From: Diplonema papillatum
Lineage: Eukaryota; Euglenozoa; Diplonemea; Diplonemida; Diplonemidae
Length of the DNA: 64,000 bases
Assembly: GCA_030068145.1 (NCBI GenBank)
Contig: JAPJBO010000001.1
Span: forward strand, 806,001 to 870,000
Reading direction: 5' to 3'
Positions 1,887 to 62,115 of the stretch are shown here, piece by piece (positions within the stretch are counted from its first letter, which is position 1; the number at the start of each line of letters is the position of its first letter). A model generated the notes under the pieces. It was not told where the DNA came from. It ran no database searches and saw only the letters and a program-made list of their open reading frames with translations. Both the position numbers and the translations under genes were made by a program.

Positions 1887-1971
1887 GGCAGGAAGAGTAA
1901 AACGGAGGCGGGGAAAGAGGAGGCAGGAGGGCCAGGGGCGGAGGGCCAAAGGGGGTGGTGGGAGGCGAGAC

Positions 1972-3036
1972 GTTGACTACCAAGTCTAATTAAATTTGGG
2001 ATCGGAAATTGAACGTTGACTACCAATTCTAATTAAATTTGGGATCGGAAATTGGACGTTGACTACCTATTCTAATTAAATTTGGGATCGGAAATTGGAC
2101 GTTGACTACCAATTCTAATTAAATTTGGATTCAAAATCGAACGTTGACTACCAATTCTAATTAAATTTGGGATCGGAAATTGGACGTTGACTACCTATTC
2201 TAATTAAATTTGGGATCCGAAATTGGACGTTGACTACCAATTCTAGTTAAATTTGGATTCAAAATTGAACGTTGACTACCAATTCTAATTAAATTCAGAA
2301 TCCGAAATTGGATGTTGACTACCAATTCTAATTAAATTTGGGATCGGAAATTGAACGTTGACTACCAATTCTAATTAAATTTGGATCCAATTGAACATTG
2401 ACTACCAATTCTAATTAGATTTGGGATCGGAAATTGGACGTTGACTACCAATTCTAATTAAATCTGGATTCAAAATTGAACGTTGACTACCAATTCTAGT
2501 TAAATTTGGATCCAATTGAACATTGACTACCAATTCTAATTAGATTTGGGATCGGAAATTGGACGTTGACTACCAATTCTAATTAAATTTGGATTTGGCA
2601 TCAGACGTTGACTACCGATTGTAATTAAATTTGGAATCCGAAATTGGAAGTTGACTACCAATTCTAATTAAATTTTGGATTTGGCATCAGACGTTGACTA
2701 CCGATTGTAATTAAATTTGGAATCCGAAACTGGACGTTGACTACCAATTGTAGTTAAATTTGGGATCCGAAACTGGACGTTGCCTATCAATTCTAATTAA
2801 TTTTTGGATTTGGCATCAGACGTTGACTACCAAGTCTAATTGATTTTGGATCCGAACCTAGACGTTGCCTACCAATTTTAATTAAATTTGGAGCCAACCT
2901 TGAACGTTGACTACCAATTCTATTTAAATTTGGAATCGGAAATTGGACGTTGAGTACCGATTCTAATTAGATTTGGGGTTCGGCATCAGACGTTGACTAC
3001 CGGTTCTAACTGAATTTGGATTCAATACTAGAAGTT
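1972..3036. repeat. ~43-bp minisatellite array
   Basis: About 25 head-to-tail units of 40-44 bp, each with GTTGACTACCAATTCTAATT followed by AAATTTGGGATCGGAAATTG or a variant. Sub-variants (for example TTTGGCATCAGACGTTGAC near 2590, 2690 and 2810) recur, so there is higher-order structure. One stray unit lies at 3196-3230. Units differ at several positions, so the array is not freshly amplified. Confidence 0.95.
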
Positions 3037-3753
3037 GACCGGTGCGGAAATTCTTCGCTGTACCGTACCGTGCGCTGGGGGGCGCTGCCCCCCAGACCCC
3101 CCTCTCTTACAAATTAGCTTAACCATTTCGTCTGATTCTTGTTCCAACACTGAGGTTGGGTGGGTTAGCCTGGGCTGGCCTGGTAGTGCTTGCCTCTTGA
3201 CTACCAATTCTAATTAATTTTGGATCCACCACAGGACCCCGAGGGCGACAAGGACTTTTCTGCAGAGGAGGAAAAGCTATATAAATCCCTGGTGCGACGG
3301 CAAAAAAAAAAAAAAACAGCGTCGGTAGGTAGCTACTGGACTTGGCGACACCTGGCTGTGCGGCCTTGACCAAGAGTGGGCCTAGGCTCCCCTGCATGTG
3401 GACCAATAAATCAGAATCCACATGTGGTACCTGTGGATCCACCCGTGGGGGAACAAAATGCAGAAAGAATTAACGTGTGGAAATCCACACGTTCCACACG
3501 TTTTTTTTATGGTAACAAGCTTGCTTGTCTATATCAAAAAGTGTCGGATGGCAGCGTGCTGTGTTAAATCACTCAAAACAGGGTTTACACACGTACGCAC
3601 AAACAAAGCGTACGTGCGTAAGCCCTGGTTCTCCATCACAAAACAAGCATTTCCCCTCCGAGGTTGTCGCCCACAAGGGTTGATTACAGTTATACGACCC
3701 GAATGCAGAGAGTCGTGGGTGTGGGGGGGCGGGGTGGTGTGGCCTCTCGCTGA
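3037..3753. other. Spacer upstream of the coiled-coil gene
   Basis: Contains a GC-rich patch near 3070, one stray minisatellite unit and a 14-base A run at 3302. From about 3630 it matches the flank of the broken copy at 569-840. No gene was recognised and no promoter can be placed with confidence. Confidence 0.5.
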
Positions 3754-25723: not shown

Positions 25724-27605
25724 CCCCCGACACGTACTTTCCACCCCCCGAAAGTACTTTCCACCCCCCGAAAAGTACTTTCCACCCCCCGAAAAGTACT
25801 TTCCACCCCCCGAAAAGTACTTTCCACCCCCCGAAAAGTACTTTCCACCCCCCGAAAAGTACTTTCCACCCCCCGACAAAAAATTTCCACCCCCCGAAAA
25901 GTACTTTCCACCCCCCGACGAAAAATTTCCACCCCCCGAAAAGTACTTTCCACCCCCGGACAAAAGATTTCCACCCCCCAAAAAGTACTTTCCACCCCCC
26001 GATGGAAATTTTCCACCCCCCAAAAAGTACTTTCCACCCCCGGACAAAAAAATTTCCACCCCCAGAAAAGTACTTTCCACCCCTCGAAAACTACTTTCCA
26101 CCCCCCGACCAGATACGCAAACTCTTTCGAACGCTGCACACGGGTATCCTTCAAGTGACCTCTAACTATCATGTTGCATACGCGTATCCGGATCTGAAAG
26201 CCGAAGACTTTGTAACACTTTACCGCAACCGAAGTCGCGAACCGGGTTCGGCTTGCACTGCAAAAGCAGCATAATTGTGTCTTGCGCACGAGCGCGGAAA
26301 TCCGCCACCCGCCATTCGGCTAGATATTGCAAGAACACAATTGCGAAGCGTACTACAAACGGATAGTGTTACAAAGGCGAACGAATCATGCGAGAACCTA
26401 TGGAGGGGCCCCTCGACAGCTTTCAGAACACGGCATAGTAAGTCAAGAGTCGGATAAGCGTGTACACGTTTTACTCCCGTTTGATCTGCATTTTCCACCT
26501 TTCCCCCCTTTCTTTGATTTGCTGTGTGTATTTGCAAAAACAGTTCCAGCCACAATCTGCAGGTCTGCGGGCTTGCGGGTTTGCGGGTATGCGGGTTTGC
26601 GATTCCGGGTTTGCGGGTATGCGGGTTCGGGTACGCGGGTTGCGGGTTTGGTTACGCGGGTATGCGGGTTTGGGTATGCGGGTTTGGGTTTGCGCGTTTG
26701 CAGGTTCGGGTATGCGGGAACGGGTATGCGGGTTTGCGGGTTTGGGTTTGCGGGTTTGGGTATGCGGGTTTGGGTTTGCGGGTTTGCAGGTTCGGGTATG
26801 CGGGTTTGCGGGAACGGATATGCGGGTTTGCCGGAACGGATATGCGGGTTCGCGGGTTTGCGGGTCGATTCTCGTGTGTGCAAGTACAGTGTCCCGCCGC
26901 GCTCCAGAAAACAATCCACCCCCCGGAAAGTACTTTCCACCCCGAAAATCCCGAAAGTACTTTCCACCCCCCGAAAGTACTTTCCACCCCCCGAAAGTAC
27001 TTTCCACCCCCCGAAAGTACTTTCCACCCCCCGAAAAGTACTTTCCACCCCCCGAAAGTACTTTCCACCCCCCGACGAAACGTTTCCACCCCCCGAAAAG
27101 TACTTTCCACCCCCCGATAAATACTTTCCGCCCCCCGACAAAAATTTCCACCCCCCGACAAGTACTTTCCACCCCCCGAAAAATACTTTCCACCCCCCGA
27201 CAAAAATTTCCACCCCCCGAAAAGTACTTTCCACCCCCCGAAAAGTACTTTCCACCCCCCGAAAAAAAACTTTCCACCCCCCGAAAAGTACTTTCCACCC
27301 CCCGACGAAACGTTTCCACCCCCCGATAAGTACTTTCCACCCCCCGATAAATACTTTCCGCCCCCCGACAAAAATTTCCACCCCCCGACAAGTACTTTCC
27401 ACCCCCCGAAAAATACTTTCCACCCCCCGACAAAAATTTCCACCCCCCGAAAAGTACTTTCCACCCCCCGACAAAAATTTCCACCCCCCGACATCGATTT
27501 ATACCCCCCGATTTATACTCTATACCCCCCGATTTATACTCTGTACCCCCGGATTTATACTCTTTACCCCCCGTTTTTCGGGGGGTGGAAAGTACGTGTC
27601 GGGGG
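25724..27605. repeat. Satellite block with perfect 27-bp terminal inverted repeats
   Basis: The block opens at 25724 with CCCCCGACACGTACTTTCCA followed by CCCCCCG, and closes at 27579-27605 with the exact inverse complement. The left part (to about 26110) and right part (26920-27480) are arrays of ~20-bp units based on GTACTTTCCACCCCCCGAAA, with spacer variants such as GACAAAAATTTCCACC and GATAAATACTTTCC. Between them lie about 450 bp of unrelated sequence and a G-rich array (26557-26872). Just outside each end are a G run and a GTGANNTACT-like stretch in inverted orientation. Three-frame open reading frames over the arrays are artefacts of repeats without stops. Confidence 0.85.
26557..26872 (+). 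repeat. G-rich GCGGGTTTGGGTTTGC array
   Basis: About 40 short units of 5-9 bp alternating TATGCGGG, TTTGCGGG, TTTGGG and TTCGGG. GGG runs recur every few bases for over 300 bp, on the plus strand only, so G-quadruplex formation is likely. The word GGGTTTG is close to telomeric TTTAGGG but never identical to it. Confidence 0.85.
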
Positions 27606-29216: not shown

Positions 29217-30070
29217 CACCATACTTCGTGGCTCTGCAGCACTCTGACCATGACTTTCCCCAATAGTGGCTCTGCAGCACTCTGACCATGACTTTCCCCA
29301 ATAGTGGCTCTGCAGCACTCTGACCATGACTTTCCCCAATAGTGGCTCTGCAGCACTCTGACCATGACTTTCCTCAATAGTGGCTCTGCAGCACTCTGAC
29401 CATGACTTTCCCCAATAGTGGCTCTGCAGCACTCTGACCATGACTTTCCCCAATAGTGGCTCTGCAGCACTCTGACCATGACTTTCCCCAATAGTGGCTC
29501 TGCAGCACTCTGACCATGACTTTCCCCAATAGTGGCTCTGCAGCACTCTGACCATGACTTTCCCCAATAGTGGCTCTGCAGCACTCTGACCATGACTTTC
29601 CCCAATAGTGGCTCTGCAGCACTCTGACCATGACTTTCCCCAATAGTGGCTCTGCAGCACTCTGACCATGACTTTCCCCAATAGTGGCTCTGCAGCACTC
29701 TGACCATGACTTTCCCCAATAGTGGCTCTGCAGCACTCTGACCATGACTTTCCCCAATAGTGGCTCTGCAGCACTCTGACCATGACTTTCCCCAATAGTG
29801 GCTCTGCAGCACTCTGACCATGACTTTCCCCAATAGTGGCTCTGCAGCACTCTGACCATGACTTTCCCCAATAGTGGCTCTGCAGCACTCTGACCATGAC
29901 TTTCCCCAATAGTGGCTCTGCAGCACTCTGACCATGACTTTCCCCAATAGTGGCTCTGCAGCACTCTGACCATGACTTTCCCCAATAGTGGCTCTGCAGC
30001 ACTCTGACCACATGACTTTCCTCAATAGTGGCTCTGCACATGACTTTCCCAAATAGTGGCTCTGCAGCAC
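29217..30070. repeat. 38-bp minisatellite, ~22 nearly identical units
   Basis: Unit starts TGGCTCTGCAGCACTCTGAC and goes on CATGACTTTCCCCAATAG. Apart from rare C-to-T changes near 29373 and 30020 and a degenerate last three units, the copies are identical. Because 38 is not a multiple of three and the unit has no stop on the minus strand, all three minus frames stay open, giving long but spurious frames (up to 376 codons). Confidence 0.97.
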
Positions 30071-32589
30071 TCTGACCACATAACTTTCCCAGTAGCTCGC
30101 AAAATGGAGGTGACGCAGCTCTGCCAGCTCTGCCTCCTCAAGCGTACCCGGAAAAAAAAGGGGTCAAGCAACAAAAAGCAATAATACAGCTGGTCGAAGG
30201 TCAGCGCACCCATATGGTTCTACGCTCTTGCCAGCACGTACTTCATCGGCTGCGGTCTGTTTTATTACAACTACGAGACCGTCCCCGGTGCGAAGGGAAG
30301 GGTATGCTTTGCTTTTTGGTAGTACGCTCCAGGACATGAAGAACAAAGCTATTCCACCTTTGTGTCAATTACGCCATCCTGTAGTAGTGATTCTACGTGG
30401 AGGTGCTTAGCCGGGAACAGGTGCAGCGGGGAACGAAGCGTCGACAAAGAAAGAAGAGAGGTGCCACCCGCGCCTGACACTGACGGGCTGATTTCAATCG
30501 GACCCACCAGTTGCAAACCCCGTGCTTGTGAAATCTGCGATTCAAGAATTGGTGGACGTTGGAATCTACCGTGATCGGTCCGCCTGGCTATCGCTGACGG
30601 CGTAAACTGGTGAAAATTGGCTTGGGCGGCGATTTGGGTTGACTTCTGAATACTTCAGCCACGCGACCTCGAGCACTCATTTTTTCCTCGGCCGCGCATC
30701 AACATCCCACGATGAATCGCAGGACTGCGCAAAAATCAGGGGTGGCCACCGTTGTGTGCTTCCTCCGGCCACCCAGGTTGTAAAGGGGGGGGGGGGGGGC
30801 CAACACCTGTGTTATTATTCGATTTGTCGAATACTAAAAATTCCGGGTAGCGAACAGTAGCAGGATCAAGTAGTGTGGCCGCCAAACCCAACCAACCACA
30901 GGATACGGTGATCCGACGAACAGCGGGGTTCGTTGGCACCGATGGCTTCATGGAAAATATTCATGTGCCGGGTGCGCAGCCCATCAGACCGAAGCTGGGT
31001 AGCTAGGCAGCACCGGCGATTGCAAGCCGGAGCCGCTTCTCAGCTTGGATTCTCCTGGTTCTAGCCTCATGAATCGCTCGCCAACGGCACTAGCAGCGCT
31101 GTAGCGTTGTCACTTTGCCCACGCAGAAAAGGTGGCGTGTGGGTTGGGCGGCACAATGTCGGGTAAGAAATGGCCCGCCTGACGACAATTGTCGCTCGCT
31201 GTGTGCCGATGGGCGGCCCGTCCCAGCCCTGTTTAGCGTGCGTCTGCACCGCTGTTGGCAACAGCGCTCAGCGTTCTCGGAGTACTCGTCAGTGGAAGTC
31301 ATTGGCATTGCCAATAGTCACAGATGTTTCGTCACGCGATGTCGTGGTGCAACTTCTGACGACATCTTGCTGCCGTTGCGTCGTACGCGCGCATCGCGGC
31401 TCGGGTTATGGACCGACGGAAACACACGTCTCCCCCGCTTGCGCAACACGGACCTCATGCTTTCGCCTGTTCAGCTCGTCTTGACCGTCGCGCTCAGGCG
31501 CTTCGCGCATTTTCAAGCTCAGGTCGTTTTTCAGAGGTGAATTTGCTCAGATAGACCGCCGTGATAGACGGAGAACACCGGGATGCCCAGACCATCGGTT
31601 AGCTCAATGAAGCTTCCGAAGGAGAGGGTGCCCTTGCTGACCGCCGGAAGCCCTCGCCCGACAATGGTCGGGGTTTCTGAAAGTTTGGACACACGCAGAG
31701 AGAGGCTATTCGATTACAACCACGGATTGTTCTTCTTTTTCATACTGTTTTTTTTTTTCGGCTCTCTTTTTTTGCTGATTTGTTTTTTGACGTTTCTGTT
31801 TGTTCGTTTCTTTCGTTGCGTCGTTTCTGTCCTACGTTTTCCGACCGTTCCAGTGTCCCGCGGACTTCCGTGTGACGGTGTCGTTTTGTCACACTCGTCT
31901 GCCGAACCGCTTGTGGGCTTCAATGACCGGCAGCTCGAAGAAAGTCTTCGTTCCCAGCAGAGTCATCACCTGTTCAAGACTGCTGATCTGGCGGTAACGC
32001 CAACTGAACCCGGAGTCCCTGCCGATCCTTACCCCTGGGAACCAGACTCTGCAGACGTCGCCGCCGCCGCGCTGCGAACGCGTGGATGGACTTTGTTTCC
32101 TTCGTCTGCTTGGCTAGTGTATGCGTGGCATCGTGTCTGCGTGGCATAGTGTCATGAATTCTCACACAACGGAGACGTCGAAGAGCCGTTGCGGCACGGG
32201 GCAAGGCGCTCGTTGCCTGCCTCCGCGGTACACGAATACCCTAGTTTGCTTGCGGTTGCGACCTGCGGCTCCAGATCCAGTTGCGGCGTTTCTTCTACCC
32301 TTGTAGAACTTCCAGAAAGTCGTAGCCAAGTACCTAGCTAGGCCCGAGAGTGATGGATATCACCTGCCTTTCATGCAGACAATCCGGGATGGGCACAGCC
32401 TGGCCTCATACGATCTGGTCAAGCCTGGCGTCTCCGCATTTTTGATCCAAGGCAATACATAAAGACCCCCACCACAGGCAAACGAGGGTGTGCGAGGGGC
32501 GGTGTGGTGAAGGGATGCTTGCCTAAAGGAAACGGGTGAAAAAAAAAAGATTGCAGCGCACGGAATAGGAAGCACCACCCCCTCCGCAC
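30071..32589. other. Spacer with no firmly supported gene
   Basis: A plus-strand stretch at about 31870-32110 (reading SAEPLVGFNDRQLEESLRSQ and onward) has some coding character, but is preceded in frame by a poly-Phe low-complexity run, and I could not place splice sites. A 16-base G run is at 30784. No RNA gene recognised. Confidence 0.35.
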
Positions 32590-45697: not shown

Positions 45698-52498
<6,801 letters not shown>

Positions 52499-53154: not shown

Positions 53155-53520
53155 AGCCTTTGGAACTAAGCTAGCTGCCGTGATCGACGAGATCGCCTTA
53201 TGTAGCTAGAACTCATGCTCGAAGGCTAGGTCGCTGAGAACCGTCGCCAGCCTTTGGAATAAACTGAGCTGCTGTGGTCGACGAGATCTTATATAGCTAG
53301 AAGTCGCATGCGGCAAAAGGAAGATTCACCGCATGAAGACTCGAACTCTGGAAATCTCATAATTTTCCGCAACTACACCCGAAAGGGCCTGGAAGCATGG
53401 AAGGTTCTCCGTTCAGTTCCGAGGCGGGATGCAATCCCGACCACAGTTCGCGTGATCGGTCCCCGTGGCCGCTACGTGAAACCTTGAGAGTCTGCTTTTA
53501 TATGAGCAGATTACCAAATT

Positions 53521-53550
53521 CCCCGACGCGGTATTCCCACCGCGTCGGGG
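53521..53550. other. Perfect 12-bp GC-rich hairpin
   Basis: CCCCGACGCGGT and its inverse complement ACCGCGTCGGGG flank a six-base loop. It sits between the two halves of the local duplication. Confidence 0.8.
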
Positions 53551-53858
53551 ATAGCGAGCGACGCCGGCAAGTTGTGGCGTTTCTCAAGAGTCTTGGTCGG
53601 ATCAACCCGGAACTTCGAAGGTTTCCCTTCAGCTCCGAGGTGTGTATGCGACCCTGACCCGTAGTTCGTTTGGGTTCTTCCCAGATGGACTTCTCGCGAT
53701 CGGTTCTTCTGGCCGCTCGGGAGATGTGACAGTCTGCTCAGATCAGATTAATATAGGTTAATCCCCCGTCGCTATCCCGAAGACATCTCATATTCGCCCC
53801 TCGCTTGTCGTACTTCGGGCTCAATCACCCCCGACCCGTGTATGCCAGCCGAACCATA

Positions 53859-54256
53859 GTTGGTGTGATCCAACCACCAGGACAAACTGGGGAAAACTCT
53901 CGGGTGTGTAAGCTTAATTTAGGTGGTCAACGAACGTTCCTAATGAAAGAAAGCCCGCCGGAAGTCTCTCTAAACTGGAGATGCTGTGTTTCACAGTGGC
54001 GCTCCTGCGCACCAACCACCAGACCTTCCATCACAACACGCGTGCGCACCTCCCGTCTTCGCGCGCCATCATCCCATCGGGCGCCGCACCGCCTTCCCTC
54101 ATCTGAGACAGTGCCACTCCCCAGCCACTTGCAATATCGTCGAGTCATCTGATGCAAGCACACACGCCTACTCTTGGGTTCTCGTGAACGATCGTTTTCA
54201 ATCCGGGCAAACTGGAACAAACAATCCAGGGAAACTCTTAGGGGGATCACACCAAC
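53859..54256. mobile_element. ~400-bp element with terminal inverted repeats
   Basis: GTTGGTGTGATCC at 53859 is matched in inverse complement by GGATCACACCAAC ending at 54256. Subterminal CAAACTGG and GGGAAACTCTTAG / GGGGAAAACTCTCGG words follow, some in direct order. The interior has no recognisable transposase, so this is a MITE-like or decayed DNA element. The CAACCACCAG word recurs inside. Confidence 0.5.
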
Positions 54257-54567
54257 GATATTATATGCCCCCCGTGTAATTGAAGCACATATTTTTGTCT
54301 ATCTAAAAGTGTCCCAATATATATTTCGTTAGTGTATGACCTTTATGACATTGTGACACCTGCCCCTTGACAAGGCGGACCCATCCATCCTTCGCTGTGT
54401 CACGTTGAAGACTCGATTTTTGTCAACTGGTCTCGAAACGGCCTGTCAATTTCATGGTCACTGAGAATTTCACGGTCGCCTTCTTGGATCAGCTCCTTGA
54501 TGTACGACATCTTCTGGGTGTTTTCTAGGTGTCACGGCAAGTTTAGGCAGCCGCTGGTTAACAGTGT
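54257..54567. other. Spacer before the retrotransposon
   Basis: AT-richer DNA with no gene recognised. It carries two related TTTCATGGTCACTGAG and TTTCACGGTCGCC words. Confidence 0.5.
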
Positions 54568-54621
54568 AGTGCATGTTAATCCATGTGGTTCATGTACTTA
54601 AAAGAACTCAATGCTTAACAA
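54568..54621 (+). repeat. Left 54-bp direct repeat flanking the retrotransposon
   Basis: Starts AGTGCATGTTAATCCATGTG and ends CTCAATGCTTAACAA. It matches 60761-60814 with one A/G difference. It is either a long target-site duplication or a pre-existing tandem target unit. Confidence 0.9.
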
Positions 54622-54747
54622 CGGGACCCCACAAAGGCCGCAGCCGGCTACACCTGCGGCGTGTGTAGGAAGAAGAAGGCGAAGGGTCAGCTTCGCTTGG
54701 AATGCGAGGGCTGCGACGTCAGCGCGTGCAAGACTTGCACGAGCTGA
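54622..54747 (+). pseudogene. Remnant of ORF1 with a treble Cys-pair zinc finger
   Basis: In the same frame as ORF2, the sequence reads YTCGVCRKKKAKGQ and then LECEGCDVSACKTCTS before TGA 54745-54747. Three C-X2-C pairs in about 30 residues resemble a PHD/RING-like zinc knuckle and are similar in style to the Cys/His array at the C-terminus of ORF2. There is no ATG in this frame: a TAA falls at 54616 in the flanking repeat. The ATG at 54611 is in another frame and opens a 114-codon arginine-rich frame without recognised features. A truncated ORF1, or a segment read through into ORF2, are both possible. Confidence 0.5.
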
Positions 54748-57700
54748 CTACCTCCACAGCCCGCACCCGGCGCCAGTGGCCCCGCCAGCCCATTACGGGT
54801 TGCCCTGCGCGCGAGGCCCTCGTTCGGGCTGCCGAGTCCTAGCACCCCTGCTAGGCAGTTCGATCACGCAGAGACGGAAAAAGAGAATTTCTGCTCCTCT
54901 TCTTTTCCCCTCCCTCTCTCTCACGGCGCGTCTGGCCTCAATCGCCCGGGAGTGATACCCCGAGGGCCCGGTTTTGCGCACAAACAATCCCCCTACAATA
55001 GCCAGTGTGCCCGGCCAACTTGCAACGAGGGCCCCCCCGCCAGGGTGGAGGGACCCATCCCGGGGCTAAGTTTCCAGGCGATCCCTCGGGATCTTCTGGA
55101 TAGACTGAGCCGAGCACCCGAGCTCAACCCGGAAGCCCCATGGGGAAGGCTGGGGGGTGGACACAGCAGGGAAACCCAGCAGTGGGGGCACGCCTATCGA
55201 CTAGGTGAACCCCCGATCAGACTGGAACGGGGTATCCCCGAGGGGCCCCTGAAAGAAGCGGCGGATCTCATACGTGACCGCCTTGGGTGGGAACCGGACC
55301 AGTTGCTGGCCAACTGGTACCGGAGGGGAGTGGGGATCAACCCCCACAAAGACCAGAGAGAACTGGGTCCGAGGGTAGCGACCATATCGCTCTTGAGCGA
55401 CACGGTCATGGAATGGGAGAGGGGGAGCCGGAGAGTGAGAACCCCTCTGCCGGTCGGCACACTGTGCCACATGGAAGGCGAGGCCAGGAACCTGTGGACA
55501 CACGGGATTCGTCCCGATGATGTCGCACGCGACCGGGTCTCGCTGACCTACAGGGCCGTGCGCGAGGCCGCCTCCCAAAGTTTGCAAGGCCGGGACACCC
55601 CGCAAGAAACTCCCATACCCCCCCCGCCCAGCCCTCAGGCATCCACTGCACCCCCCCAACATCAGTCCAGCCCCGCGCCACGGACACTTTTGCTTCATCA
55701 CCAAAGAACTCTACAATCAATCAAAGAATCAGCAAGACAGCGGCTGATAACCGCGGGGGACGTCGAACAAAACCCTGGTCCCGGCCGCGCGGAGATGAGG
55801 TTCGCGACGTTAAACGTAACCAACCTACTACAGTATCTCCCAGCGGCCGACGCGGTGGAAGCGGATCTTCTCTGCTGCCAGGAGGTGACACTCCTTCCGT
55901 GCAAACGGGTGCAGGCGGAGGAATACCTGCGGAAATGGTGCTGCCACTGGGGTCTGCCACCACCCGGAAGACTCTGTAGGAACTCCGGTAGTCGCTCGAC
56001 GATGAACGCCGCGAACGGAGGGCTCTCCACTCTAGTACTGAGACCGATACCGGCGTACGATACGATGACGGCGCTCTCGCACGCAGCAATACGGTCCCCG
56101 GACCGAGTGAGCCATACAGTAGTAGCAACAGGGGCCGGCAACACGTTCGTGCACGTGTTCAATGTCTACTGCCCTTCCGGAAACGGGAGGGCGGAGAGCG
56201 AAGAGCGTGAGGACATGCTGGAGAAGATCCTCTTCGCAGCGGCGGATAGCCTCGGTGACGTCCCCATAATGGTGATGGGTGACCTGAACACAGAAGAAGA
56301 CCGGTCCCCTGTACTGCGGAAGGCACTAAGGAATGGATGGTCCGACGCAGCGGAACTGCACCATGCACGTACCGACACACCACCGCCACCGACCTTTACC
56401 AGCGCCCGGACATCGGGCACGAGGATCGACCGCATACTCCTCAACCGAATAACGACGGGAGCTTTCCGCCAATGCGTCACCACCGCGGTGAACGTGCCGG
56501 GACACCGGCTCGTGACAATGACCCTGGACATTGCGGCGCTGCGCCAAATCGTGTGGCGATTTAAAGTACCGCGGGAAATCTCTACGGAGGGGGGACCCAA
56601 GTGGGGCCTCTCGGACACAGAAGCTTACAGGGAAGCCGTACAGAGACTGGCCAACTCCGATTTCGCGGAACGGCTGGCAGCACAGCGAGCGGAAGAGGCC
56701 TGGCTCGAGTGGTCACGAGTCAGTGAGCAGTACTTGCAGGATGCCTTCGGAATCCCTGCGGAAGAAAGGGGAAGAAGTACGGGACGGGGGATAAAGACGT
56801 CACCTAAAAGAGTCTGTATCACGGCAAGCACTGCGAGCGACGGGTCGGGGGCGGCGAACAGCAGACAGCTACGGCTCCGGAAGGCCATCCACAGGATGGA
56901 ACGCATCTGCAGCTACCTTGCGCAACGGCGCGGGCCGGAGGCAGTTCCGCATGAGGTATCCCGTTGCTGGCAGAACAGCAGGCGGCTGGCACAGGCGTGC
57001 ATGAAAGATGGCCAAGGGACAGAAGGATTCCCGGATCATGAGGAGGCGAAGCAGCTTCTCACGGCATTGCGGGAAGAGACGAGCAGGCTCGGAAAGGAAG
57101 GATCGGCGGCCAGGTTTACGAAATACCGAGACAAGCTGAACGAGAGGGCCGATGCGAGCAGACGATGTCTGACAACCATCTGCGCCGGACGCGCTGAGCC
57201 GTCGGGGGTGTTGCGAAAGGGGGCGGGAGTGACTGCAAATGTTGACGAGATGGACGAGGTGCTGAACACTGCGTGGGACCCTATCCTGCGTAAGTACAAG
57301 GACGGGCCAGAGCCGGAGTACGAGCCGTTTCGGGATCGGTTCCGGGATCACATCGGCCCACATAGGATGGAAGCCGGAACAATCACGGGGGAGGAGTTGC
57401 GAATTCTGCTGAGGAAGAAGCCGAAGAAAAGCGCGTCAGGGGTGGATGGCTGGCGTATGGCTGAACTGCGGGAGTTGCCGCTCCCCCTGCTGAATGCACT
57501 TGCAGACGTCATGAACCTGGTCGAAGCAACTGGAGACTGGCCGGCAAGCATGACAACTGCGCTGGTGTCGATGGTGCCGAAGGATGAGAGTCAAGACCCG
57601 CTGCACACAAGACCGATAACCGTCACATCCGCCGTGTACCGCTTATGGGCCTGCCGCAGGCTGGCGGACATAGTTCTGTGGCAAGAGGAATGGATCGAAG

Positions 57701-60700
57701 AAGGACAGAAAGGCTTTCGACCGGGTCACCGGATCGAGGACGTCTTGATGGAAATTGGGCTCGAGATGGAGGACGCCTTGTTAGACGGGGAGCCGCTCTA
57801 CGGTGTGGCGCTGGACTTCCGGAAATGCTTCGACATGGTCCCGCGAGAGATAGTACTGCGCTTAGCCGAGGACTTAGGATTGCACAATCGGGTTCTCAAG
57901 CCGCTGAGGGCTATCTACAGACTGCTCGCGAGACGCTTCAAGCTACCATTAGGGGTGGGCAGGGAGTTCAGTGTGACCAACGGTATCCTTCAAGGGTGCC
58001 CTGTATCCGTCATACTCATCAATGCCCTGCTGTCGGTAGTGATGAAAGCGGTCAAGAAAGAAGCGGAGGGTGTGAGTCCAAAGTCATACGCGGACGACGC
58101 CACACTGCTGTCCAGGCTGTCGGAGGCCGCCCTGCAAAAGGGAGTGGACGTAGTAGACGAGTTCTGCACACTCACCGGGATGGAGCTAAACCTCCAGAAG
58201 ACGGTCGCGTTCTCGACGAGACGTAGGCATCAGTCGACTCTCAAACTCCGCAGCGTGGATGCGCTGCTGCGGTTTAGCAAATCCGTCAAGTGCCTCGGGG
58301 TCCTAGTCTCGACGGCGAAGAATAGGACGGAAAGGTCCGACTCGGAGAGGGTGGAGAAGGCGGCTGCCCTGGCGGAAGGCCTCCGCCATGCGCCGTTCCG
58401 GTACGAAAAGCGGGTCCGGATTGTGCAGTCGAATGTGCTACCGGCGGCGCTGTCAGGCTGCTCTTTCGCGCCGGTATCGAAGGTGGCGATGAAACGGCTG
58501 ACGACGTCGGTGATGGGACTGATCTGGGGTGGATCCAACCCGAAGCGCGCGAGGGAGATGGTCCTAAACTTTCAGGAGAAGGGCCACCTGACGGATCCCG
58601 GTACATGCCTAGCATATAGGGTGACGACAGCGTTTTACGCGGCGTGCGAGAGGTTGCCACGACTGCTGCCTCTGATGGAGAGCATCCGGGGAAGATACGC
58701 CGAGGGGGACCTACCCCTGGGGCCAGTTGGACTGGCGATGAGGAGCATGGAGGAGTGTGGACACGTATGGGGACCCGGGCCCCTGTCTCGCACGCTGAGG
58801 AATGGTGCAACATATGACCCGTTAACCTCGGCACCTTCGAAGAGGGGACATGAAGTTAGGGCGGACTTGAGGGCGAAGACGTGGTCCCGACTGGTGGCGA
58901 GGCGGCCGGGATTTGAGGGCATACAGAGAGCCGACCTGGAGCGGACGAACTCCTTCTGGAGGATGCGTGAATGTCCCGCGCACACCGCGAGGCTTATACG
59001 TGTAGCGTTGGCGGGGGGGGTGAACACGGCTGAGTACACGTCGCGGATGAGGCAGGCCGGAGCTGAGCCGCAGGCGCCCAGCTGCAAGCACTGTGGAAGC
59101 GGCGACACCGAGGACGAGAAACACGTATTCTGGGACTGCGGAGCGTACTCGCACATACGGCGACGAGAGGCACATGCCGAGCTGATGGCAGCCAACCGGG
59201 CCGACTGGCCCAGATGCACGCTGGAACACGGTGTGGTAGTACCCGAGAATGCCCAATTCTCGAGGCGGCTCCAGGAGATGATGGCTGAAATCCTTGCGGA
59301 ACGGGCTGGGCTCGAAGCACGTGGCTGGGTGGCCAGGAACCCCACGACCCCCTGGTCGAGAGCGAATGCGATGCCTGCCGAGAAATTTGACCACCCCTTC
59401 GCGCGGATTGCCCCGGCATGGACGTGGGAGCGGAACAAGACCTGGGGACTACCGACGTTTTATGCGTTGGTAGCGTGGCTGTCGGACATGCAATGGACCG
59501 AGAACGGGCAGGCGTCAATGCTGGAGCTTGCGATCGACTTTGAACTCTTCTCGGGCCTCAGCATGCCGCTGCACGGGAATGCGCCGAAGGGGGTGAGAGA
59601 ACGGGGAAACGTCCTGCGCTGCATGATGAGCGCGTTGGACAAGCTGGCGGCACAGCAAGGGCTGGGAAGCTGCATGAGAGGAGAGAGGGTGTGCCCGACG
59701 ACGTCGCTGTCGTTCATGGGCATCACGGGGATATCGGGTATACGGCCCAGGCCACGCTTTCGCGAGGCACACACGGGGACGATACTTGAGGAACAAGTGA
59801 AAGGAAGCGATGTAGGGACGCAGTGCCCGACGTACCCTGACTGGACGATCGGGAGAGCGGCGAGGTGGGCCCTGCCTGCCCCACCACAACTGCACCCAGA
59901 CCCCGTGCATATGCCGGGTGTCGGTATAGAGAAGGCACTCGTCACGTGCGCGACCCATCACAAAGGGAAGTGTGAGGCGTGCAGAGCACTCGTCCGAAGG
60001 GACGTTCCCACGGTAGAGATGTGCTGCCGGCACCATCACCACGCGAACGATGGGCAGCCGATCGCGGTGTGCACAGAGCACAGCACGACGAAGTGCGGCG
60101 AGTGCAAGACGGCGGCGGCGTGTTGCCGCAGCGGGCATCATGCCTGCCGCACGCATGGCAGAGGAACCTGCCAAGAGTGCAAAAGGCTCCCTACGCTGAC
60201 GCAGAGGCGACCGGCGGCATGTTGCAGCCGCGGCCACCACCAGTCCAACAAGCCGAACGTCCAGTCAACCCCCGGACGCAACAAGAAGAAGAGGCCCTCC
60301 TCACCCACCCAGGTGGGTGTACAGCGGGAGACGCCATTAGGAAAGCGAGCGGCGCGAGCGCCGCTCGCGGCAACGAAAAAGGAGACGGCGGCAACCGGAC
60401 GGGCGACCAAGAGGCCGCCACCAACGCCAGGAACCAGCGAACGACCAGCGCTGAAGAAGAGGGTGCTTGGCACCCCGAAGGAAGGCCCGATCGCCGGCCG
60501 CAAGCGGAAGAAGACGAAGGCGACCACCCCCGAGTCAGGGGTGCATCGAAGGAAGAAGAAGGTTCCGAGGGCAAGCAGCTCTCAGAAACGACCGGGGACC
60601 ACGGGCACGCCAATGCCCTCGAAACACGTGCCCGCCCTCGTACTCGCCGACTTAGTCTCTGGAATCGCAAGAAAGCCAAACCCCGCTAGCTCCACAAATG

Positions 60701-60711
60701 CTCGACCTTGA
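54748..60711 (+). CDS. Retrotransposon ORF2: AlkB-like oxygenase, 2A, APE endonuclease, reverse transcriptase
   Basis: Residues are numbered from codon 54952 (a GTG, used only as a reference); the frame is open from 54748. AlkB-like 2-oxoglutarate/Fe(II) oxygenase: NWYRRGVGINPHKD supplies the HxD (H132, D134), WTHGI the distal His184, and RVSLTYR the 2OG-binding arginines (R195, R201). A Pro/Gln linker leads to GDVEQNPGP (D270-P277), a 2A ribosome-skipping motif. Directly after it comes the APE endonuclease: MRFATLN (N288), CCQE (E311), GDLN (D444, N446), TRID (D493) and GHRLV (H518). The RT has LDFRKCFD (D955), GILQGCPVS and YADD (1046-1049). CCHC finger: C1378, C1381, H1391, C1396. A Cys/His array with CEAC, CGEC and CQEC pairs spans about 1666-1765, followed by a Lys/Arg/Pro tail. 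The protein should nick DNA and prime reverse transcription. The oxygenase may repair or demethylate alkylated nucleic acid; that is inference. The first in-frame ATG is inside the AlkB domain, so initiation is unclear. Confidence 0.9.
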   Translation, partial: LPPQPAPGASGPASPLRVALRARPSFGLPSPSTPARQFDHAETEKENFCSSSFPLPLSHGASGLNRPGVIPRGPGFAHKQSPYNSQCARPTCNEGPPARVEGPIPGLSFQAIPRDLLDRLSRAPELNPEAPWGRLGGGHSRETQQWGHAYRLGEPPIRLERGIPEGPLKEAADLIRDRLGWEPDQLLANWYRRGVGINPHKDQRELGPRVATISLLSDTVMEWERGSRRVRTPLPVGTLCHMEGEARNLWTHGIRPDDVARDRVSLTYRAVREAASQSLQGRDTPQETPIPPPPSPQASTAPPQHQSSPAPRTLLLHHQRTLQSIKESARQRLITAGDVEQNPGPGRAEMRFATLNVTNLLQYLPAADAVEADLLCCQEVTLLPCKRVQAEEYLRKWCCHWGLPPPGRLCRNSGSRSTMNAANGGLSTLVLRPIPAYDTMTALSHAAIRSPDRVSHTVVATGAGNTFVHVFNVYCPSGNGRAESEEREDMLEKILFAAADSLGDVPIMVMGDLNTEEDRSPVLRKALRNGWSDAAELHHARTDTPPPPTFTSARTSGTRIDRILLNRITTGAFRQCVTTAVNVPGHRLVTMTLDIAALRQIVWRFKVPREISTEGGPKWGLSDTEAYREAVQRLANSDFAERLAAQRAEEAWLEWSRVSEQYLQDAFGIPAEERGRSTGRGIKTSPKRVCITASTASDGSGAANSRQLRLRKAIHRMERICSYLAQRRGPEAVPHEVSRCWQNSRRLAQACMKDGQGTEGFPDHEEAKQLLTALREETSRLGKEGSAARFTKYRDKLNERADASRRCLTTICAGRAEPSGVLRKGAGVTANVDEMDEVLNTAWDPILRKYKDGPEPEYEPFRDRFRDHIGPHRMEAGTITGEELRILLRKKPKKSASGVDGWRMAELRELPLPLLNALADVMNLVEATGDWPASMTTALVSMVPKDESQDPLHTRPITVTSAVYRLWACRRLADIVLWQEEWIEEGQKGFRPGHRIEDVLMEIGLEMEDALLDGEPLYGVALDFRKCFDMVPREIVLRLAEDLGLHNRVLKPLRAIYRLLARRFKLPLGVGREFSVTNGILQGCPVSVILINALLSVVMKAVKKEAEGVSPKSYADDATLLSRLSEAALQKGVDVVDEFCTLTGMELNLQKTVAFSTRRRHQSTLKLRSVDALLRFSKSVKCLGVLVSTAKNRTERSDSERVEKAAALAEGLRHAPFRYEKRVRIVQSNVLPAALSGCSFAPVSKVAMKRLTTSVMGLIWGGSNPKRAREMVLNFQEKGHLTDPGTCLAYRVTTAFYAACERLPRLLPLMESIRGRYAEGDLPLGPVGLAMRSMEECGHVWGPGPLSRTLRNGATYDPLTSAPSKRGHEVRADLRAKTWSRLVARRPGFEGIQRADLERTNSFWRMRECPAHTARLIRVALAGGVNTAEYTSRMRQAGAEPQAPSCKHCGSGDTEDEKHVFWDCGAYSHIRRREAHAELMAANRADWPRCTLEHGVVVPENAQFSRRLQEMMAEILAERAGLEARGWVARNPTTPWSRANAMPAEKFDHPFARIAPAWTWERNKTWGLPTFYALVAWLSDMQWTENGQASMLELAIDFELFSGLSMPLHGNAPKGVRERGNVLRCMMSALDKLAAQQGLGSCMRGERVCPTTSLSFMGITGISGIRPRPRFREAHTGTILEEQVKGSDVGTQCPTYPDWTIGRAARWALPAPPQLHPDPVHMPGVGIEKALVTCATHHKGKCEACRALVRRDVPTVEMCCRHHHHANDGQPIAVCTEHSTTKCGECKTAAACCRSGHHACRTHGRGTCQECKRLPTLTQRRPAACCSRGHHQSNKPNVQSTPGRNKKKRPSSPTQVGVQRETPLGKRAARAPLAATKKETAATGRATKRPPPTPGTSERPALKKRVLGTPKEGPIAGRKRKKTKATTPESGVHRRKKKVPRASSSQKRPGTTGTPMPSKHVPALVLADLVSGIARKPNPASSTNARP

Positions 60712-60760
60712 CGACGCGATGGCAGGTGACGACGTCATCCGATAACCTGACTTTCAAGGC

Positions 60761-60814
60761 AGTGCATGTTAATCCGTGTGGTTCATGTACTTAAAAGAAC
60801 TCAATGCTTAACAA
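60761..60814 (+). repeat. Right 54-bp direct repeat flanking the retrotransposon
   Basis: Identical to 54568-54621 except for G in place of A (CCGTGTGG against CCATGTGG). It follows the ORF2 stop by about 50 bp with no A-rich tail between. Confidence 0.9.
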
Positions 60815-62115
60815 AATTTGACGTGGGTGGCTTCAGATCTACATCTGAATAGTAAGTCCCTGGCCCGTACACGATCCCCGTTCCAAAGCGACAAGGAGAG
60901 CTGGCCGCAGAATTGCCTGTGGCAGTTTCTCGCAGCTCTGGAACGAGTCTGCATCGACACCGTTTCGAGGGTTTTTGAGGCTTGAAAAGGGCTGAATAAG
61001 GATTCCAGTCACTTATGGGGTCATGGGGTACCAACGGTACGCTGAGGTACCACTTTGAAAATGACCCACTGGGACCATTCTGTTGCCCCCTGTGGCTATG
61101 ATGACAATCAACAATCAAAGAATGCATGCTAATCCATCAAGGAAAACTCAATGCTCAACAACAGTGCATGCTAATCCATGCGGACCATGTACTCTATCCA
61201 TCCATGCTGCTTCATATATTGATGTACCTCACTGTGTGGTGTCATCAGCTGGATCTGCATAAGCCCAACTCGACGCCGGGCGCCGGCTGGATGATGTCCA
61301 ACATGCTTTATCGGAAAGATCATTTAGGACTCGCTCTCGGAAGGGGACTGGTCGAATATCTTTTCCTTTCCTCTCTTCTCAAGCATGAATGAACGCTGGC
61401 CGAGTACTAGTGCACCTCTTCCGGGGTTCTTGGTCGGTCAGCAGCGACTCGCACGCCTGTTGCCTTTCCTCTGTCCGTATTGTTCTTGCGGGCGCTCTGG
61501 ACCTTTGTCTCCGTACCGTTCCCTTCTAGCATCTTCTCACAGCGGCCCACACTTCGACTCGAATCTGCTGGACTCATGATTATTGCTATTCCTAACTATC
61601 GGACACCAGCTCTTAAGCACACTAGCCTAATTTGATTGCAACGCATCACACTTTGAACACGAACCCGAAGCATGACACAACAGGAGAAAATAAAATACTC
61701 TAAAGGAAGGCACACACCTAGTCCACAAGAATAACAAGACCACAGACACCTAGAACACCAAGAAAGAACCGGAACCGACCCCCTTCCCCGTTCACCAGAA
61801 GTAGAGGAAGAGAAGAAAACTCCTCGAAGGAGCGCTCTTCAAGGAATACAAAAGCGAAATAGTTTCCTCCCGAACCGGTTCAAACTTCTGCCCCTGTGCA
61901 CTACCTCAAATACAAGGAGTCCGTCGCCCGACCAGTGCACGCTTCCGTGAGGCCGCACTTGACACACTTCGAGCTCCCAAGGGCGTTCTTGTTTTTTTCT
62001 CACAACAACAACAAAGAAAGAAGAAGAAGGAAAGAAGAACTCTGCATACATTCGACCTACCGGTCGAGTTCTAGTCTTCCCTTCCCCTTTTTCCCCGTTG
62101 GAGTCAGCAGCGAAA
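60815..62115. other. Spacer containing more copies of the target unit
   Basis: Besides the tandem units at 61121-61196, no gene was recognised. A purine tract plus ACTCTGCAT at 62010-62046 resembles the R2 family. The 5' UTR of the cyclin must lie at the right end. Confidence 0.5.
61121..61196 (+). repeat. Two degenerate tandem copies of the retrotransposon-flanking unit
   Basis: ATGCATGCTAATCCATC ... AACTCAATGCTCAACAAC is a copy with an internal deletion, followed directly by AGTGCATGCTAATCCATGCG and GACCATGTAC. They show that the 54-bp sequence exists at this locus independently of the insertion. Confidence 0.75.

Follow-up and report, generated by a model that had tools for sequence, protein, structure and literature searches.

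Here we describe a family of long interspersed nuclear elements (LINEs) in Diplonema papillatum, a unicellular marine flagellate of the Diplonemea (Euglenozoa), that carries an AlkB-type dioxygenase in the same open reading frame (ORF) as its endonuclease and reverse transcriptase (RT). The starting point was a stretch of 64,000 nucleotides (contig JAPJBO010000001.1 of assembly GCA_030068145.1, positions 806,001 to 870,000; hereafter the window), where one ORF on the forward strand (54748-60711) encodes, in this order and in a single frame, a complete AlkB domain, the 2A motif GDVEQNPGP, an apurinic/apyrimidinic-type endonuclease (APE) and an RT. The AlkB-bearing family is real and selected, and its long copies have the layout spliced leader, 5′ untranslated region, ORF1, UGA, AlkB, 2A, APE and RT. 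As judged from sequence, AlkB is probably made as a readthrough extension of the ORF1 protein (ORF1p), released by 2A and, through ORF1p, brought to the element’s own RNA.

A preliminary description of this DNA, made from the letters alone, had placed AlkB, 2A, APE and RT in one frame with 2A between the first two enzymes, and this order stands. The 2-oxoglutarate/Fe(II) (2OG-Fe(II)) dioxygenase domain (55039-55572) passes the family profile PF13532 with 46.4 bits against a cut-off of 31.2, as had been anticipated for 2OG-FeII_Oxy_2, and adopts the double-stranded beta-helix fold of AlkB enzymes, with fold matches that include ABH2 and ALKBH8 and also viral polyproteins. Its catalytic residues lie at 55345 (H), 55351 (D), 55501 (H), 55534 (R) and 55552 (R). 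A proline-rich linker followed by a predicted helix (55573-55755) leads to the 2A motif (55756-55782), which fits the definition D(V/I)ExNPGP (PMC4981915; this and the other papers given by PMC number are cited from excerpts). Pfam places the endonuclease (Exo_endo_phos) at 55822-56448 and the RT (RVT_1) at 57601-58302, all on the forward strand, and in a comparison with PDB the RT is closest to L1 ORF2 (2.8e-21). Endonuclease and RT thus share one ORF as in APE-type non-long terminal repeat (non-LTR) retrotransposons. We rejected a chance open frame, as the first 345 codons stay open in 1 of 5,000 mononucleotide shuffles and the substitution pattern given below also speaks against it.

The preliminary description had asked for further copies and for intact AlkB residues within them, and the genome supplies both. 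Using DNA from the 5′ repeat to just beyond 2A as a query against the assembly (271 Mb in 2,910 contigs), we scored 40 of 1,388 candidates; of 43 matches, three were the flanking repeat alone, and the others were 40 element copies with 98-100% DNA identity, each spanning at least query positions 55-1232. All 40 scored copies, the window copy included, carry the AlkB-2A segment, and we discard the idea that AlkB is confined to the window. The signature N-Y/H-D/H/R-R, which combines the HxD...H iron site with R(x5)R, is in frame in 29 of 30 loci (L001-L030), as is GDVEQNPGP; the remaining locus, L026, is frameshifted before AlkB. At the protein level, 13 sequences related to the window ORF were found, 12 of them named Diplonema papillatum, and in four the matched part has 89-98% identity to the window protein. 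The clusters of the RT part represent 73 (P0003), 23 (P0002) and 10 (P0005) sequences. The gene model of P0002 begins at a methionine just behind 2A, and those of P0003 and P0005 start deeper in the sequence. AlkB is thus missing from all three, which may explain why it has been overlooked.

We compared a copy of the window family (L034) with one of a sister family (L043) to measure the ratio of non-synonymous to synonymous rates (dN/dS). AlkB is under purifying selection, with a dN/dS of 0.196 over 178 codons, below the value of 1 that the preliminary description had named as a sign of function, and is constrained like the endonuclease part (0.16, 255 codons). The ratio is 0.66 in the linker and 0.50 in the 30 codons ending behind 2A, and the spacer ahead of AlkB is unconstrained at 0.86, with 0.82 and 0.68 in its two other frames. 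ORF1 is near saturation in this pair (31% identity, dN/dS 0.64). That AlkB is a functionless passenger, for which one could point to sister families that lack it, is very improbable given this ratio and the intact catalytic residues. A selection test within the family was abandoned for lack of diversity: AlkB showed two synonymous and three non-synonymous changes over 30 rows (L007, L012, L020 and L025 omitted as duplicates of L031-L034), and the last segment, codons 581-850, was distorted by the rearranged copy L002.

The window element is a copy, truncated at its 5′ end, of a diplonemid LINE of the APE type that inserts site-specifically and has been active recently. It is flanked by direct repeats of its target, 54 bp each, at 54568-54621 and 60761-60814 (53 of 54 positions identical). 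Of four long copies examined (L031-L034, the same copies as L007, L012, L020 and L025), three are likewise flanked by the target repeat at either end (54 bp; roughly 66 bp in L034), and in L032 only the 3′ repeat is present. The 3′ junction, GGC|AGTGC, is identical in the window copy and all four long copies and is not preceded by poly(A); L033, L031 and L003 contain copies arranged head to tail. This fixed junction, the flanking duplications and the head-to-tail arrays indicate that the element inserts site-specifically within a repeated sequence. As is typical of APE-type non-LTR elements, copies with target-site duplications and with 5′ truncation were found, the breakpoints of the window copy and L003 being different: in 28 of 30 loci, shared sequence extends upstream beyond window position 54622, the exceptions being L003 and L001, which is the window copy itself. 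Diverged units of the target repeat also occur near 61123-61196.

Of ORF1, the window copy retains a 3′ remnant with a zinc-finger-like cysteine pattern (54622-54744), behind which come the TGA stop (54745-54747) and CTA; the rest is absent. In the four long copies, roughly 8.2 kb where undeleted, a leader is followed by ORF1, TGA-CTA and then AlkB-2A-APE-RT in the frame of ORF1. The ORF1 frame runs for 687-782 codons up to the TGA, and ORF2 follows directly with 2,007 codons in L033 and L034, 1,991 in L031 and 1,661 in L032, where an internal piece is missing. Among L001-L030, the ORF1 frame is open to the edge of the DNA read in 19 loci and is closed before that by a stop in the other 11, several of which are truncated copies. 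ORF1 itself (L034:6178-8187, reverse strand) has a variable poly-Q tract and a 12-bp PPAA repeat tract whose length differs between copies.

The long copies start with ACCAACGATTTAAAAGCTACAGTTTCTGTACTTTATTG, exact in three and with one mismatch in L031, at L031:1671 and L033:1539 and, in L032 and L034, on the reverse strand. We take AACCAACGATTTAAAAGCTACAGTTTCTGTACTTTATTG to be the spliced leader of Diplonema. It is given as a euglenozoan spliced leader in PMC3795323. Because the leader heads the long copies, the retrotransposed RNA was a trans-spliced mRNA with both ORF1 and ORF2.

Between the two ORFs, TGACTA is present in all 30 loci (L001-L030). In none of them is there a methionine within the first 200 codons after it, nor an in-frame AUG before the AlkB core, and the spacer (54748-55038) is an open frame. 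UGA followed by CGG or CUA defines type II readthrough, usually with an extended stem-loop starting about 8 nucleotides downstream (PMC3542737), and the window family has this motif, UGA-CUA with the downstream ORF in frame, making it a candidate readthrough site. UGA-CUAG readthrough also occurs in mammalian genes (PMC4132726), although the base following CUA is C in the window family and G in that motif. The yeast LINE Zorro3 was considered as a parallel readthrough case and dropped, as the first ATG of its ORF2 matters (PMC1965478). Rfam gave no match for 53400-62000 at E values up to 0.1 and none at gathering scores across the window.

To place this junction in a wider context, we searched for sister families with the protein P0004 (45 matches; 42 scored of 4,231 candidates) and examined three besides that of the window, with one to four copies each. 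Family 2 (L043) has ORF1, TGA-CTG, a diverged AlkB and the same 2A. Families 3 (L041, L042) and 4 (L035-L038) have ORF1 and no AlkB, with TGA-CTA and 109 codons to the end of GDIEENPGP in the former, and TGA-CTC and 162 codons to the end of GDVETNPGP in the latter. L039 has a different 5′ structure without an ORF1 of this type, and no 2A was found in L040. A single UGA-CUN with ORF1 and ORF2 in one frame is therefore common to all four families examined, two of them without AlkB, while families 2 (CUG) and 4 (CUC) deviate from the CUA of type II sites and family 3 keeps it. The spacers stay open in dinucleotide shuffles at frequencies of 0.118, 0.226, 0.232 and 0.039 (four families, 3,000 shuffles each), which we did not multiply because the families have a common ancestry. 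The leader is also present, with a single mismatch, in a family 3 copy (L041:796), and a family 4 copy retains the last 14 nucleotides of it; the family 2 copy begins without it.

The mechanism that we propose is as follows. Ribosomes on the spliced-leader mRNA would mostly stop at UGA and yield ORF1p; a minority would pass UGA-CUA and cross the unconstrained spacer, so that AlkB is added to the C terminus of ORF1p. The putative 2A would then free the ORF1p-AlkB fusion and the ribosome would continue into APE-RT. Since AlkB lies behind the UGA of ORF1 without an AUG, such a fusion, rather than free AlkB, is the likeliest product. With ORF1p as the presumed RNA-binding partner, AlkB would be delivered onto the element’s own RNA, where it most likely would strip base methyls (1-methyladenosine, 3-methylcytidine or 3-methyluridine, or N6-methyladenosine (m6A)) that stop reverse transcription or flag the RNA for silencing. 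Methyl removal from the template is most likely the economical function for an AlkB linked to ORF1p and produced together with RT. The preliminary description had AlkB begin a self-standing ORF2, which does not fit its position behind the UGA of ORF1 without an AUG in the window family; the equal amounts of AlkB and RT that it expected would follow from an active 2A under readthrough as well.

Several observations weigh against this proposal. The predicted stem after UGA in the window family, which begins at nucleotide 10, is unexceptional (z of −1.6 over 85 nucleotides; 10% of 133 tiles across the element do as well). Corresponding values in families 2, 3 and 4 are −1.7, +0.4 and −3.5, and in 120-nucleotide windows those of families 1-4 are −2.3, −1.9, +0.8 and −2.1; the sequences behind UGA barely align between families. 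The spacer is under no protein-level constraint, and, although absent from the window family, an in-frame ATG occurs in the spacer of families 2, 3 and 4, so these could initiate there, family 4 having an additional ATG just before its 2A. No RNA-binding Pfam domain was found above cut-off in ORF1p, and families 3 and 4 multiply too although they lack AlkB, so the clade can do without it.

A bolder version of the readthrough proposal combines it with a second AlkB context. Two Diplonema proteins, P0008 and P0013, have AlkB domains 77% identical to that of the window over 162 aligned residues (67% over a 214-column alignment). P0008 has no significant similarity to the window protein outside AlkB and linker, and its OTU match is weak and under the cut-off (21 compared to 23.3 bits); we read the remainder as a putative other retroelement class, partly fused by gene prediction. 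P0013 has a putative tyrosine-recombinase-like part, and Pfam reports AlkB alone. In this version, which as a whole we regard as possible but doubtful, unrelated elements in the same genome would have the AlkB module in common, two recoding events (UGA-CUA readthrough and 2A) would act on one leader-capped mRNA, and the AlkB borne by ORF1p would erase template methylation that blocks RT. Its boldest target would be the spliced leader’s hypermethylated cap nucleotides, known as cap 4 in trypanosomatids, proposed because the leader in the long copies is intact nearly up to the first nucleotide; the AlkB-less family 3 copy, however, contains the leader as well.

Instead of readthrough, ORF2 might have its own trans-spliced mRNA, with a pyrimidine-rich stretch near 54890-54935 and the AG after it serving as the leader acceptor, and AlkB starting at a non-AUG codon such as GTG at 54952. 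The position of this tract ahead of AlkB, the spacer’s freedom from coding constraint and the leader on essentially all D. papillatum mRNAs (PMC10161547) would suit it. We nevertheless consider it rather unlikely, given that an in-frame AUG is absent in 30 of 30 loci, that both ORFs share a frame in four of four families and that the leader precedes ORF1 in the long copies, though these show just what was reverse transcribed. Slightly less likely still, AlkB could act on host nucleic acid, such as target DNA or host tRNA, countering silencing or aiding insertion: its superfamily has DNA- and tRNA-acting enzymes, as the fold matches ABH2 and ALKBH8 illustrate, and 5-methylcytosine methyltransferase homologues are present in the genome (PMC10161547), but no observation in this analysis points to any AlkB substrate, DNA targets included. 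It is improbable that free AlkB is the 2A-released N-terminal product of a self-standing ORF2; the 2A between AlkB and APE and the in-frame ATG in the family 2 spacer are compatible with it, but the window family has no start codon before AlkB and has ORF1 upstream in frame.

Parts of this architecture have known counterparts. As the preliminary description had stated, 2A is found in non-LTR elements, namely the L1Tc-like elements (PMC4981915), and L1Tc/ingi LINEs of trypanosomatids likewise combine APE and RT in a euglenozoan host. The Diplonema family differs from these in having ORF1, an in-frame UGA, AlkB and a 5′ spliced leader, and the RNase H domain of ingi elements (PMC12278014) has no Pfam match in the window ORF at E values up to 1. 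Orchid Ty3/Gypsy elements are also retrotransposons with an AlkB-type domain, whose ORF showed RNA binding and m6A demethylase activity in vitro, but they are of LTR type with AlkB in an additional ORF, and the excerpt of that paper notes no 2A or readthrough (PMC9289625). Some plant RNA viruses similarly carry AlkB within the polyprotein of a genetic parasite (PMC544882), but theirs are RNA replicases, not retroelements; two scans of viral contigs found no encoded relatives, nor did a phage tblastn search. ALKBH8, ALKBH5 and ALKBH6 share the fold and catalytic signature, at roughly 18-28% identity among the structural matches listed, whereas the window AlkB sits in a retrotransposon polyprotein. 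Type II systems, such as the alphavirus replicase, have UGA-CUA between two in-frame ORFs (PMC3542737); here the UGA-CUA is a candidate site within a LINE, and the predicted stem behind it is unexceptional in the window family. According to the D. papillatum genome paper, there are a dozen AlkB homologues and about 2,500 retroelement gene models, which its excerpt does not link to each other (PMC10161547), and no AlkB-bearing LINE was among the literature matches listed (titles and abstract starts, with most subscription papers outside this scope).

Elsewhere in the window, an ORF at 45698-52498 (forward strand, 2,266 amino acids) contains four Ion_trans segments together with a long run of asparagines, by which we assign it as a four-domain voltage-gated cation channel. 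Self-comparison also revealed tandem repeat arrays at 1969-3039, 25724-27573 and 29228-30090, the last with a period of about 76 bp.

If the proposed mechanism is true, a LINE bears its own nucleic-acid demethylase in a fixed ratio to its RT, and the ORF1-UGA-ORF2 layout hints at how ribosomes get to a second ORF on an mRNA that begins with a spliced leader. The elements may edit the methylation of their own RNA. Whether RNA methylation restricts retrotransposition, and whether elements respond to it, could then be put to the test, with sister families that have and lack AlkB in one genome providing a natural control.

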